A DNA stretch of 64,000 bases. Origin: an uncultured Lachnospiraceae bacterium (GTDB lineage Bacteria > Bacillota > Clostridia > Lachnospirales > Lachnospiraceae). Position 1 is the first letter of the stretch; each line of letters opens with the position of its first letter. The notes under the pieces were generated by a model that made no database searches, was not told the DNA's origin, and saw only the letters and a program-made list of their open reading frames with translations. The position numbers were made by a program, and so were the translations under genes. Positions 4,295 through 45,940 of this stretch are shown piece after piece. The DNA lies in NCBI GenBank assembly GCA_900319245.1, contig ONNQ01000016.1, forward strand, positions 19,334 through 83,333. The letters run 5' to 3'.

Positions 4295-4666
4295 TCAGAT
4301 CTCTGCCTTCCAGAATCCGTGCAGGTTGCAGTACTCGTATGCAGCAACGGGATCAGCTGCCTTGAAAACTGCCTTGGGCGCCTGGCCGGGCTCAAGTTCC
4401 GCATACTGGAATCCGCTCTTTGTCTCGAGAACGATGAACTGGATGTAGTGTGCATCCATCATAGGGTGCTCAACAGAGCCAACCTGAACCGTTACAGTCT
4501 CGCCATCAACGGTAACAGCGGGAACGTGCTTCTCTCTCGCGCCGTCGGTAACGCCCGCGATCATCTCTTTCATGGGCTCACCGCAGCAGGAAGGGGAACA
4601 TCCCTTCGCATTGAGCTTTACGACCATACTTCCGCATTTTGCGCAGCGATAAAATTTAAGTGCCAT
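4295..4666 (-). CDS. dfx: Desulfoferrodoxin (superoxide reductase), class I
   Basis: This 123-residue cytoplasmic protein reduces superoxide to peroxide without making oxygen. The N-terminal desulforedoxin-like domain has all four Cys ligands (C8, C11, C27, C28). The C-terminal catalytic domain keeps the His4-Cys iron site: H47 in EKH, H67, H73, C113 and H116 in CNLHGFW. Presence of both centres makes it class I (2Fe-SOR). The start is set by TAGGAGGTAT just upstream; an ATG 7 codons earlier lacks this. It stands alone with its own terminator and supports a strictly anaerobic lifestyle. Confidence 0.95.
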   Translation of the reverse strand: MALKFYRCAKCGSMVVKLNAKGCSPSCCGEPMKEMIAGVTDGAREKHVPAVTVDGETVTVQVGSVEHPMMDAHYIQFIVLETKSGFQYAELEPGQAPKAVFKAADPVAAYEYCNLHGFWKAEI

Positions 4667-4776
4667 ACTAATACCTCCTACCTCCAATTTCAGTTTTTGT
4701 GCTATTTACATTTTTGAATTCCCATTTATAGAAATATTTTAATGCATTTGCAGATAAAAGAAAAGCTGAATCTCGT

Positions 4777-7614
4777 TCATTCCTCCAGGCTTTCCAGATG
4801 CTTTTGCAGCGCTGCCGCCGTCTCCTCGCTCATGCCCGCGAGAACGCCGCCGGACTTGCCGCCGTCCTTCTTCTCGTAGTGCTCCCGCATCAGGCTCTTG
4901 GTCAGGACCAGCTCCTCCAGCAGGTTCTGTGCGGACATGCGGTAGGCGCCGGCTCCGTAGATGATCACCTGTTCCACGGCGTCCGACGTCGCCACGGTCA
5001 CTTTATAGCGCTTACTGAGTTCGTGCGCCGCCTTCTCGATATAGAGGTCCGCTGTCTCCGCCTCCTTGGTGTAGATCACGTCGATCCCGCCCACATGGAT
5101 CACTTCGCCGCGTCCGCCCCGCACTTTATAGGCGTCAAAAACGAGAATGACGTGCTCTTTCCGAAAGCCCGCAAAGTCAACGATCATATCGATCAGCTTG
5201 TCTCTTGCGGCCATGATATCCTTCGCAGCCAGCTCCCGCAAATCCTCCCATGCAAAGACAATATTGTAGCCGTCGATCAGAAGATATTCCTTTTCCGTCG
5301 CTTTTCGGGCCGCGTGGGATCGCTTATCCGGCGGATCCGCGCTGATCACACGAGACGCCCGCTTCCAGGATTTGGCAGACCTTCCGTTATCCGGTTCCTC
5401 GTCGCTGAACCGGCTTTTGATGGGGCCGTATGTGCGCTCGAAGATCCGGCGCAGCTCGTCTTCCTCCGCGAACAATTTGGCCTCTCTCTCGCTAAAGGAC
5501 GCCGGTTTCTCCGCCTTGCGGACGCCCGCGCGAAGGCCGGTCCTTCCGGCGCTGCCGTAGGACATATCTTCCTCCCACAGGTCTTCTTCCGCATAGCCCA
5601 GCATCGCTTTGCCTGTCAGTGGTCCGTCCGACGGGTCGCGCCAGCCGGAGTCCACATGCATGCGTTCCCGCACCTCGTACCACGGAACCGGCGTGCCCGC
5701 GCCGTGTGCGCAGAAGACCGATCCGGGCGGATTGCGAAGATCCAGTTCCGGATCGTACCCCGACGCGGCAATGATCTCCTCTGCATTGGTGCAGGGCTCA
5801 TAGCCCTTGAGCGTACAGGTGATCTGTCCCTCGCCGCGCGTGTAGGCTGCCAGCTGCTCCGCATAATTGGCAATTTGGGAAACCGGCGCGCTGCCGGTGA
5901 TCACAGACCTGCCGTCTTCGAGGTCCGGCTGTGTGAAGGATGCGCCCATCTGCTGCAGATCCGTGAGCGCTCGGCCCAGCGATTCCTGCGGAATCTCCAT
6001 GCGGAAGCTGTAGAAAGGCTCCAAAAGGACACTTTCCGTCATCATAAGGCCTTGTCGTACCGCGCGGTAGGTAGCCTGGCGGAAGTCGCCGCCCTCCGTG
6101 TGCTTGAGATGGGCCTTGCCGGTGAGAAGAGAGATCTTCATATCCGTGATCTCCGCGCCGGTCAGAACTCCCCGGTGCCGTTTCTCCTCCAGATGGGTCA
6201 TGATCAGGCGCTGCCAGTTGACCGCCAGTACGTCCGCCCTGCAGCGGTTTTCAAATACCAGTCCGCTCCCGGGCACGCCGGGTTCGAGCAGCAAATGAAC
6301 TTCCGCATAATGGCGCAGCGGCTCGAAATGGCCGACGCCCTCTACCGCCCTGGCGATCGTCTCTTTATAAATAATGGAAGGCTCGCCAAAAGATACCCGA
6401 AGGCCCAATCTCTCCCGGATCATCCGCTGCAGGATCTCCTTCTGCACCTGGCCCATGATCTGCGCGGTGATCTCCTTTTTCTCCTCATCGTAGGTGAGGT
6501 GGAGGGTCGGATCTTCTTCCTCGAGGGTTCTCAGGCTCCTGTAGGCCTTGAACAGGTCTTCGCCGGGCGGCAGAAGGACTGCACAGCGGAGGACCGGCTG
6601 CAGGAGCTCTTCCGCGCCGCTTGCCTCTGCGCCGATGCCCTGTCCCACTCTGGTCCGGGTGAGGCCGGTCACGGCGCACACTTCGCCTGCGACAGCCTCC
6701 TGCCGGGCCTCATATTTACTGCCGGAATAGAACCGGATCTGTTCGACCTTCTCGGGGCTTCCCTTTTCATCCGTGCACTCGGCCAGCGGTGTTTTGACAG
6801 ACAGTCTGCCGCCGGTGAGCTTCATCCAGGTCAGTCTTGCGCCGCCGTCTCGTGTGATCTTGAAGATCCGGGCGCCGAATGCATCGCCGTACACGGGCGG
6901 CTGGATCAGCGTATCCAGGCACTCCAGAAGCGCCGGGACGCCCTGTTCACGCAGCGCTGCGCCGAACAGGACCGGAAAGAGCTTGCGGTCCGCGGTCAGC
7001 CTGCAGATCTGCTCGTTGGTGACCGGTTCGCCCTCCAGGTAGGCGTTCAGAAGCGCATCGTCGCAGACTGCGATCTCCTCCTGCACGTCCCCTTGCGCCA
7101 GCTGTTCCGACAGCGGACCGTTGCCGGGCATCACGTCCACGCATTTGGTACTCAGTTCCTTCTTGATGGAGGATAAGAGGACTGCTCTGTCCGCGCCGTC
7201 CTGGTCCATCTTGTTAACGAAGAGAAAGGTCGGGACTTTGTAGTGGTCCAGCAGTCTCCACAGGACCCGCACCTGCCCGTTCACGCCGTCCGCCGCGCTG
7301 ATGACCAGTACGGCGCAGTCCAGAACGCCCAAAACGCGCTCCATCTCGGTCGAAAAATCGACGTGCCCCGGCGTATCCAGAAGGGTATAGCTTCTCTCTA
7401 CATTCTCTCGGGAAGAAGTAAATCTGGCCTGTTTGGAGAAGATCGTAATGCCCCTCTCCTTTTCCATCTCATTGGTATCCAGAAATGCGTCCTTGTGGTC
7501 CACGCGGCCCGCTTTGCGCACGGCGCCGGTAATATGTAAAAGCGCCTCGGAAAGTGTCGTCTTGCCCGCGTCCACATGGGCCAGAATTCCCAGAATCAGG
7601 TTTTGTTTGGTCAT
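4777..7614 (-). CDS. TetM/EF-G-like ribosomal GTPase fused to a C-terminal YacP/Rae1-type NYN endonuclease domain
   Basis: The 945-residue protein opens with a translational GTPase domain: G1 AHVDAGKTT (12-20), G2 RGITI (54-58), G3 DTPGH (80-84) and G4 NKMD (134-137). EF-G-like domains II-V follow to about residue 640, in the pattern of TetM/TetW ribosomal protection proteins. After a charged linker (about 650-775) comes a NYN domain with LLIDGYN (D781), VFDAYK (D827), ETADLYIE (D856) and ATSDAVEQ (D878), as in YacP. B. subtilis YacP (Rae1) is known to cleave mRNA in the ribosomal A site. TetM-type GTPases enter the same site, so I infer a ribosome-delivered nuclease or a rescue/quality-control factor rather than simple tetracycline resistance. 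It is divergent from purC. Confidence 0.9.
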   Translation of the reverse strand: MTKQNLILGILAHVDAGKTTLSEALLHITGAVRKAGRVDHKDAFLDTNEMEKERGITIFSKQARFTSSRENVERSYTLLDTPGHVDFSTEMERVLGVLDCAVLVISAADGVNGQVRVLWRLLDHYKVPTFLFVNKMDQDGADRAVLLSSIKKELSTKCVDVMPGNGPLSEQLAQGDVQEEIAVCDDALLNAYLEGEPVTNEQICRLTADRKLFPVLFGAALREQGVPALLECLDTLIQPPVYGDAFGARIFKITRDGGARLTWMKLTGGRLSVKTPLAECTDEKGSPEKVEQIRFYSGSKYEARQEAVAGEVCAVTGLTRTRVGQGIGAEASGAEELLQPVLRCAVLLPPGEDLFKAYRSLRTLEEEDPTLHLTYDEEKKEITAQIMGQVQKEILQRMIRERLGLRVSFGEPSIIYKETIARAVEGVGHFEPLRHYAEVHLLLEPGVPGSGLVFENRCRADVLAVNWQRLIMTHLEEKRHRGVLTGAEITDMKISLLTGKAHLKHTEGGDFRQATYRAVRQGLMMTESVLLEPFYSFRMEIPQESLGRALTDLQQMGASFTQPDLEDGRSVITGSAPVSQIANYAEQLAAYTRGEGQITCTLKGYEPCTNAEEIIAASGYDPELDLRNPPGSVFCAHGAGTPVPWYEVRERMHVDSGWRDPSDGPLTGKAMLGYAEEDLWEEDMSYGSAGRTGLRAGVRKAEKPASFSEREAKLFAEEDELRRIFERTYGPIKSRFSDEEPDNGRSAKSWKRASRVISADPPDKRSHAARKATEKEYLLIDGYNIVFAWEDLRELAAKDIMAARDKLIDMIVDFAGFRKEHVILVFDAYKVRGGRGEVIHVGGIDVIYTKEAETADLYIEKAAHELSKRYKVTVATSDAVEQVIIYGAGAYRMSAQNLLEELVLTKSLMREHYEKKDGGKSGGVLAGMSEETAAALQKHLESLEE

Positions 7615-23183: not shown

Positions 23184-23269
23184 CTTTATATATGGTGATT
23201 CATGTAAAGCTACTCATGAATACGATTCATACAAAGCAACCATTCGTCAATCAAATGGCGATCTTACGG

Positions 23270-23897
23270 CAATAAGAAAGGGTACTGATCTTCTTTACGA
23301 CCGGTACCCTTTCTTAATGTGCTTTGTCCAATGGCTTGCTCCTCCTTTGCACTTTCTTTATGATCCTTTCTTCGTTCCACCCTTTCTCTTTTTGTACTGA
23401 TTGTACTGCGATGTTCATGGCTGATTTCCTGCATCATCGAGTGTCGACCCTCATGTAGATGCTTTCTTGTTTTCTTCATCCATTCTCTTGAAAAATGATT
23501 CCTATTAGAACTTACCCTGAATCTCTCTTCTGATCTACTATTTGATTGGTGCGATGATCTGAAATATAAGATTAGATCTATATATTTCTCATCCTGTACC
23601 TTTCCGGTTTCCGATCAGGTTTAAAGTTTGGGTTTTCATCTTCCTGGAATAATTGATTCGCTTTCCATTTTCATGATTCCGGTTGACATCGGATCCATTA
23701 CTGTGGCTGCTATCAAAAGAATTTCTTAAGAATAAAGAAATATCTGCTCTGATGAAATTGCACCGCGCTCTTCGTGTACTTGAATTCGGATATTTGTGAG
23801 CTTACCGAGTTACCAAATATAGGCTCTCCAGTGGAATTTACCAGTGGAGTGGTTCGTCCTTCCTTTCTTCCTCCTCGGCGAAGGAGTTTTTCTTTGT
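23270..23897 (-). ncRNA. Candidate large structured non-coding RNA (about 620 nt) with its own promoter and terminator
   Basis: A strong minus-strand promoter (23904-23932) fires into 620 bp that hold no convincing gene and end at a hairpin (23274-23315). The stretch is AT-rich and purine-rich on the minus strand. Many perfect local stems are present: 23871-23886; 23826-23849 (8 bp around one mismatch); 23790-23820 (7 bp); 23721-23741 (7 bp); 23561-23588 (12 bp, one bulge, 3-nt loop); 23497-23523; 23431-23462. A weak open frame (23264-23479) is Lys/Arg/His/Ser-rich, has no good binding site and runs into the terminator, so I doubt it. Size and setting recall ornate large RNAs such as ROOL, but I cannot identify the family. 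A decayed gene is the alternative. Confidence 0.5.
23274..23315 (-). terminator. Hairpin ending the candidate ncRNA
   Basis: AAGAAAGGGTAC (23274-23285) pairs perfectly with GTACCCTTTCTT (23304-23315) across an 18-nt loop. On the minus strand the 3' arm is pyrimidine-rich and followed by ATTG. Confidence 0.6.
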
Positions 23898-23903
23898 GAG
23901 TTT

Positions 23904-23932
23904 ATTGTACTAATTTAAGTACAATTTGTCAA
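23904..23932 (-). promoter_or_regulatory. Strong promoter with embedded palindromic operator, driving the candidate ncRNA
   Basis: On the minus strand TTGACA (23927-23932) and TACAAT (23904-23909) are spaced by exactly 17 bp. A perfect palindrome TTGTACT-N6-AGTACAA (23905-23924) fills the spacer and overlaps the -10, the expected position for a repressor. The half-site TTGTACT recurs twice inside the transcribed stretch (around 23392-23407). Confidence 0.75.
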
Positions 23933-23998
23933 CAACTCATTTTATTCTTTTATAATTATCTGATTTTTCTGACGATTAGCACTATTTTGACACAAAAA

Positions 23999-45748: not shown

Positions 45749-45820
45749 AGAGTTGGGTCACAGTACAGCCGCAACAGCACAGCGCGCTTTCACAGCGGCC
45801 GCAGGTCTGACTGTACTATG

Positions 45821-45924
45821 TGCTTCCTTACGCCGGTATTACCCGGGTCAAGTAATAAGGGTCAGCCGCTCCGGTCCGCTTATTGCGAACGGGCTGCTGT
45901 CTCAGCATCCGCTCCCCCAGCCAA
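45821..45924 (-). promoter_or_regulatory. TPP riboswitch (thi box)
   Basis: The minus strand holds the thi-box signatures in order: GGGGGAGC, then GCTGAGACAGC, CTGACCC, ACTTGACCCGGGTAATACC and GGCGTAAGGAA. These match the conserved TPP aptamer core. It sits between a good promoter and thiT. Confidence 0.93.
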
Positions 45925-45940
45925 TATTGTTTACTAAAGT

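Follow-up and report, generated by a model that had tools for sequence, protein, structure and literature searches.

Comparison with related genomes indicates that the region between glyA and the activase gene encodes, on its minus strand, a stand-alone, strongly promoted structured RNA belonging to an undescribed family of the Lachnospiraceae. In overall kind this would be a stand-alone structured regulatory RNA carrying a short ORF, which is a known sort; it is the family itself that appears undescribed, and an RNA family is thereby added to a major family of rumen and gut bacteria. No such RNA is described in the titles and abstract openings of the literature searched (most subscription journals fell outside its scope). 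The elements of the RNA gene are collected in Table 1, with positions counted from the first letter of the window, i.e. the whole 64,000-nt stretch of DNA that was analysed.

Table 1. Elements of the RNA gene and their positions in the window
Feature	Position	Strand	Remarks
RNA gene	~23897 to 23273	−	between glyA and activase genes, gut or rumen bacterium
Promoter	23904–23932	−	−35 TTGACA 23927–23932, 17-bp spacer, −10 TACAAT 23904–23909
Palindrome TTGTACT-N6-AGTACAA across spacer and −10	23905–23924		clade-limited; role unsupported
5′ module: purine-rich GGAAGGAC..AACCA, three codons, in-frame TAA	23838–23864	−	diverged form of GGAGGTACGGACCACC module
Conserved motif TTCAAGTACACG	23773–23784	−	just before helix PA
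Helix PA, 5′ strand GCGGTG	23761–23766	−	pairs with 23408–23413
Internal domain of long forms: CGGAAACCG, hairpin 23561–23588, CAGATCATCGCACCAATCAAATAGTAGATC	23532–23613	−	alignment A4, pair counts
Helix PA, 3′ strand CATCGC	23408–23413	−	same six letters occur in another copy
Hairpin PB, GTAC-AATCA-GTAC	23394–23406	−	
Shine-Dalgarno AAAGGAGG of micro-ORF	23341–23348	−	
Micro-ORF TTG GAC AAA GCA CAT TAA	23314–23331	−	M-D-K-A-H-stop
Intrinsic-terminator hairpin, 13-pair stem	23273–23316	−	overlaps micro-ORF stop codon

No Rfam 15 family was matched at gathering score by the RNA, in the window or at 20 relative loci. A permissive search (E ≤ 10) gave 15 matches around the element, with scores far below the family thresholds and with ROOL, GOLLD, OLE and HEARO absent, and for four further sources there was no Rfam match at all at E ≤ 0.5. 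A known Rfam RNA was therefore rejected, none being found at gathering score and nothing convincing at permissive scores. At gathering score the window has one Rfam match only, a TPP riboswitch at 45808–45928 on the minus strand (54.7 bits). The preliminary description of this DNA had suggested a new class of RNA or an ornate large RNA like ROOL, GOLLD or OLE. The first part stands, as a possible new class, on the lack of an Rfam 15 match and on a conserved, covarying RNA; the fixed, ornate ROOL/GOLLD/OLE type does not, there being no covariance-model match and a length that varies from roughly 145 to 790 nt.

Transcription unit and coding potential

DNA searches of the bacterium's own genome and 60 relatives produced matches of nearly full length (70–79% identity) in five congeneric genomes; shorter stretches matched in many others. 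A profile built from six aligned sequences was used on 106 loci and found the element in 36, which, after seven groups of duplicates were reduced, left 29 sequences including that of the window. Wherever both flanks lay on the contig, the RNA followed glyA on the same strand and faced, in convergent orientation, a gene for a 1448-aa activase-like protein. This placement held throughout the genus; related RNAs lie elsewhere in other Lachnospiraceae genera.

The −35 and −10 hexamers that had been noted on the minus strand, with 17 bp between them, are indeed present and match 11 of the 12 consensus positions in the window, with the RNA probably starting near 23897; the scanned stretch contained six promoter-like sites versus 2.1 ± 1.5 in shuffles. 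All 29 profile-selected loci had a TTGAC-type promoter by a search pattern that itself prescribes TTGAC, and in 16 of 16 other loci, assessed by scoring, a TTGACA promoter matched 11–12 of the 12 consensus positions. So near-consensus a promoter suggests that the RNA may be abundant. The promoter had also been called palindrome-controlled. The palindrome exists, its arms reaching 8 bp when the flanks are counted; arms of 7–8 bp were kept in 4/29 loci (the window, L038, L118 and L121), with 6 bp in L122 and L041. In L092, whose flanking genes are closest to those of the window (activase 96% and GlyA 98% identical), the arms have just 4 bp. Being clade-limited, the palindrome was rejected as an operator.

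That the region holds no credible gene was borne out: a 71-aa ORF on the minus strand (23264–23479) is crossed by 1–2 nt indels in homologues. In the six-sequence alignment the promoter and terminator were conserved, and the indels were not multiples of three. An ordinary protein gene was rejected since the reading frame was not kept among homologues. The complete, stand-alone minus-strand transcription unit proposed earlier, with a strong promoter, a terminator and no ordinary protein encoded, thus appears to be well founded and conserved in relatives. A decayed gene, also considered in the preliminary description, or neutral AT-rich filler had only AT-richness in its favour, the search having begun from one sequence; the promoter, helices, micro-ORF and terminator are kept across the genus and in other genera, and covariation and synteny contradict this explanation, which we regard as scarcely credible.

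Conserved helices and covariation

The many local stems of the region had been taken as far more structure than AT-rich filler should show, a claim that did not survive. The folding energy of the 628-nt RNA gave z = −3.64 (20 shuffles), but z was only −1.55 without the terminator, and −2.59 for the antisense strand (60 shuffles). An excess of hairpins by folding energy, not significant once the terminator was removed, was therefore rejected, and for the same reason many hairpins are not evidence on their own. The real structural evidence lies in covariation, not in the number of stems. Covarying base pairs among homologues, which had been named as one of the checks, were found in PA, PB, the terminator and the internal hairpin at 23561–23588, and the last of these exists as first described. 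The helices thus carry the compensatory changes that mark a structured non-coding RNA.

Helix PA spans about 38 to 443 nt among assigned members, in 13 distinct strand combinations (a few with one mismatch); across the 29 loci it was perfect in 19, had one mismatch in five and was without an acceptable form in five. When PA and PB were taken together (11 distinct rows), 98.2% of cells were paired and six of the ten pairs had changed on both sides (five of six in PA and one of four in PB); none of 500 shuffles reached the observed value for either paired cells or the covariation score. The 5′ strand of PA was taken as the best match within a short window, and a six-pair match was obtained with its own partner in 20/23 cases versus 134/414 with swapped partners (six further rows, L263, L293, L133, L042, L141 and L158, were dropped before this count). 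The terminator and PB, over 23 sequences, were 93.8% paired, 12 of their 19 pairs showing double changes. For hairpin 23561–23588 with CGGAAACCG in 12 long-form members, 92.6% were paired and two pairs showed double changes; none of 500 shuffles gave as high a covariation score, although the double-change count alone was equalled in 195/500. The internal domain as a whole is strongly conserved in sequence among the long forms.

The covariation of PA, PB and the internal hairpin, together with this strong conservation, would suit an RNA whose folded domain binds a protein, a ligand or a target mRNA, acting as a structural scaffold or as a trans-acting base-pairing sRNA; the terminal micro-ORF would then have the secondary role of protecting or recycling the 3′ end. 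However, PA with PB was not found by pattern in 57 of the 87 rows of the wider search described below, so the PA/PB domain looks optional in the wider family. In addition, the smallest members (~145–155 nt) are mostly Shine-Dalgarno modules, and the micro-ORF end is common to all sites examined, though the sites were selected by it. A scaffold or base-pairing role is possible because a structured domain is present, though optional, and we consider it rather unlikely.

The terminal micro-ORF and the upstream modules

Absent from the preliminary description were a terminal Shine-Dalgarno/UUG micro-ORF abutting the terminator and Shine-Dalgarno modules upstream of it; the hairpin that it did place about 620 nt from the promoter was confirmed as the 13-pair terminator stem. 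In all 29 profile-selected loci the RNA ends with GGAGG, 8–12 nt, TTG, GAN, 3–8 codons and an in-frame stop, the exceptions being one GTG start and one AAC second codon. A terminator stem follows in 28 of them; L125 is cut by the contig end. The pattern used here prescribes TTG or GTG followed by GA or AA, and the letters were also read without it. A wider search of the fetched loci, with a pattern prescribing NTG, a preceding CC and a following GA or AA, gave 87 distinct sites. Two lie within genes and 85 are genuine; the starts of the latter were TTG (77), ATG (7) and GTG (1). Among the loci with the pattern is L050, from Lachnospiraceae bacterium NK3A20, a cultured member of the family. The micro-ORF was mostly five codons long (60/87 sites), and a stop at or before the stem foot occurred in frame 0 at 80/87 sites versus 26 and 44 in the other frames. 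When the start codon was not prescribed, NTG was nevertheless present at 70 of 71 sites (TTG 63, ATG 6, GTG 1, other 1), the lone exception, AAA, being a second site in L124, a locus that also bears a regular end. Stop codons interchanged between neighbouring sequences in 12 cases. In genomes drawn from the whole family (see below), the second codon was GAN at 9/9 sites in eight genomes, GAN being unprescribed, and the start was AUG at six and UUG at three. The loci are related, so these counts are not independent events.

With codon 2 counted, third positions accounted for 43 of 82 differences, an excess. Peptide-level selection beyond codon 2 was not significant: in codons 3–5 third positions accounted for 38 of 98 differences (p = 0.15), with 15 synonymous and 34 non-synonymous. 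The peptides MDSIV and MDEIV recur across genera with synonymous changes. The start, GAN and stop are therefore conserved and the rest of the peptide is mostly free, with these recurrences as a reservation; together with the third-position excess when codon 2 is included, they hint that some members of the family are under peptide constraint. On comparative evidence the ORF has the conserved start, in-frame stop and Shine-Dalgarno sequence of a translated one. The anatomy of the RNA thus parts translation from peptide-making, start and stop being conserved and the codons between them seemingly nearly free. Were the RNA instead a very small mRNA, with a peptide of 4–14 residues (MDKAH here) as its product, e.g. 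a signal or arrest peptide, the conserved start, second codon and stop, the recurrence of MDSIV and MDEIV and the third-position excess would be accounted for. Yet that excess loses significance without codon 2, the peptides are widely different between lineages, and modules lacking a start would be left unexplained by peptide production; this reading seems to us improbable.

One to three upstream modules are present in many members. Each has the form AAGGAGGUACGG(U/A)CC(A/G), after which the codons are mostly non-start (AAG, CCG, CCA, AUU, CCU) and a stop lies 2–4 codons on. In 79 RNAs, 71 modules were counted versus 14.3 expected from dinucleotide shuffles; 47 RNAs had at least one (12.8 expected), and 32 had none by the pattern used. 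The pattern took no account of stops; a stop no more than four codons from the module was found in frame 0 in 50/71 cases versus 16 and 13 in the other frames. A looser pattern, with NTG starts excluded, gave the stop in frame for 47 of 97 candidates versus 17 and 17, and Shine-Dalgarno hexamers upstream of the last module numbered 44 versus 22.5 expected. All of these module counts are inflated by the relatedness of the RNAs. In L174 and L278 an ATG replaces the non-start codon of an upstream module. For a comparison of the modules with the 3′ end of 16S rRNA, the genome search found no 16S sequence.

A Shine-Dalgarno sequence with a weak UUG or no start and an immediate stop is what would be expected at sites that attract ribosomal subunits without making protein, and on this ground we favour, tentatively and at less than even confidence, the idea that weak or dead-end start sites on the RNA serve to dock ribosomal subunits. 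It would be made in quantity and would bind 30S subunits at its Shine-Dalgarno sites, where strong Shine-Dalgarno pairing combined with a weak or absent start codon may hold the 30S without productive initiation; ribosomes that do start would leave again after a few codons. Exposure or masking of the Shine-Dalgarno sites would fall to the structured domain, and the RNA would in this way adjust how many free 30S subunits there are or how they are recruited; the micro-peptide itself would be incidental. The prevalence of AUG in the family draw lowered our confidence in docking somewhat, as the weak UUG start is not universal and this counts against it. So do the diverged upstream module of the window's own RNA and the 32/79 RNAs without one by pattern, the 57/87 rows in which PA with PB was not found by pattern, and the hint of peptide constraint from MDSIV, MDEIV and the third-position excess with codon 2; moreover, a single RNA gene could tie up few 30S subunits if its product were not extremely abundant. 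The broader proposal, a natural array of dead-end initiation sites that captures and releases small ribosomal subunits and serves as a bacterial ribosome decoy across the Lachnospiraceae, is doubtful. If docking is true, it would be a natural control of ribosome availability, directly testable.

Distribution, genomic context and known systems

A covariance model of the 3′ domain (R1, alignment A3) was built from 23 of the 29 loci, leaving out near-duplicates, L125, L140 and L141. It matched 38/41 genomes of the genus, 22/38 drawn from the family, 67/392 of the order and only 13/391 of the class; searches on this scale scored a limited number of candidates from each genome, eight in the case of the order. 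Not all of these matches are genuine. In the family draw, 21 genomes besides the bacterium's own had a model match; the end structure was present in eight of them (nine sites), and the loci read in the remaining 13 were without the pattern. Outside the family it was found in one of 16 loci read (L174, in G187): it was absent in ten of the 11 order-level matches read (16 genomes), L174 being the exception, and present in none of the five class-level matches read (six genomes). All of the 30 best order-level loci (L150–L179, including the window copy) had it, L179 with 20 codons. At least 12 of 30 weaker loci (L284–L313) and at least 15 of 30 further genus copies and weak matches (L254–L283) had a micro-ORF site, identical sites being counted once.

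The bacterium's own genome contains, on another contig, a second, minimal copy of ~150 nt (L180, about 5430–5610; G000:C38:20446–20598), with two modules and the micro-ORF MDKNH, upstream of a response-regulator gene; small copies resembling it also occur in other genomes of the genus. A weak third match (L201, about 1450–1640; G000:C62:80671–80792) has a TATAAT-like site, GGAGG, an ATG followed by seven codons (MKLQVFSE), then a stop that immediately precedes a terminator-like hairpin, and is possibly a distant relative of the RNA family. The window RNA matched nothing in the phage or plasmid collections searched, and a phage or plasmid element was rejected on this ground.

Outside the profile-selected set, a same-strand gene lay downstream in 16 of the 22 loci whose context was read (the L196 site being doubtful). 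These genes vary between lineages; the one in L182, L183, L185, L186, L187 and L188, read from its sequence, we take to be membrane-anchored and GH3-like. The end of the gene upstream of the RNA in L155 and L156 resembles, we presume, aspartokinase. The frequent same-strand neighbour, often of this presumed GH3-like kind, and a stop codon that, at almost every site, runs into the stem foot or abuts it are features of an attenuator, in which the RNA would act as a sensor and regulate its own terminator through the micro-ORF: a ribosome at the stop codon would mask the foot of the hairpin, and the polymerase would read on into the next gene (in the window, antisense to the activase gene). Such a mechanism is possible because stop codon and terminator are adjacent, and, if true, would make the RNA a leader of a new kind. 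We nevertheless judge it unlikely: the downstream gene is convergent at the glyA/activase position and differs by lineage elsewhere, 13 of the 16 same-strand genes come with their own promoter-like site, albeit weak (mostly 9–10 of 12 positions), and the terminators are long, near-perfect stems. Leader-peptide attenuators likewise have a short ORF beside an intrinsic terminator; the present RNA shares this arrangement but differs from them in having no constant downstream gene, that at the glyA/activase position being convergent.

RNAIII and SgrS are dual-function sRNAs with ORFs of tens of codons that encode conserved peptides. The present RNA is like them in being a putative regulatory RNA with a short ORF in it, and unlike them in that its micro-ORFs are mostly of five codons, with little peptide constraint. 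CsrB and CsrC are protein sponges with many GGA stretches, which the present, presumably abundant RNA recalls by its many GGA-containing stretches. A search for csrA (PF02599) found none in the bacterium's own genome, which alone is weak since the assembly is 87% complete, and found it in one of 23 genus genomes (G000–G022); a CsrA sponge was rejected on its not being found in the other 22. The gene was found in 8/14 genomes of other families of the order.

With ROOL, GOLLD and OLE the RNA shares the character of a stand-alone, large structured bacterial RNA, but it differs in being chromosomal, syntenic in the genus and variable in length, with a terminal micro-ORF and no covariance-model match. 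ROOL and GOLLD are carried by phages or prophages or lie near tRNA islands; for the window RNA, what was looked at is the phage and plasmid collections, without a match, and the position in the genus, which is chromosomal and syntenic. GOLLD is said to bind ribosomes in pull-downs (PMC12286853). In Clostridium phytofermentans, a related organism, a novel intergenic, probably non-coding transcription unit is described downstream of cphy2658; on cellulose and corn stover, no other initiation site of that genome is reported to be as strong (PMC5171806). This intergenic unit is set beside the present RNA by description and serves as a lead only.

In another genus (g26), the RNAs at L160, L166, L170, L172 and L178 have the same 3′ end and a quite different 5′ part, which contains AAGCUUCAUC and GAUGCUUCAC elements and looks strongly conserved by eye. 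At L249 two copies (G431:C27:3675–3802 and 4565–4692) lie <1 kb apart, with the micro-ORFs MDNEY and MDSEY.
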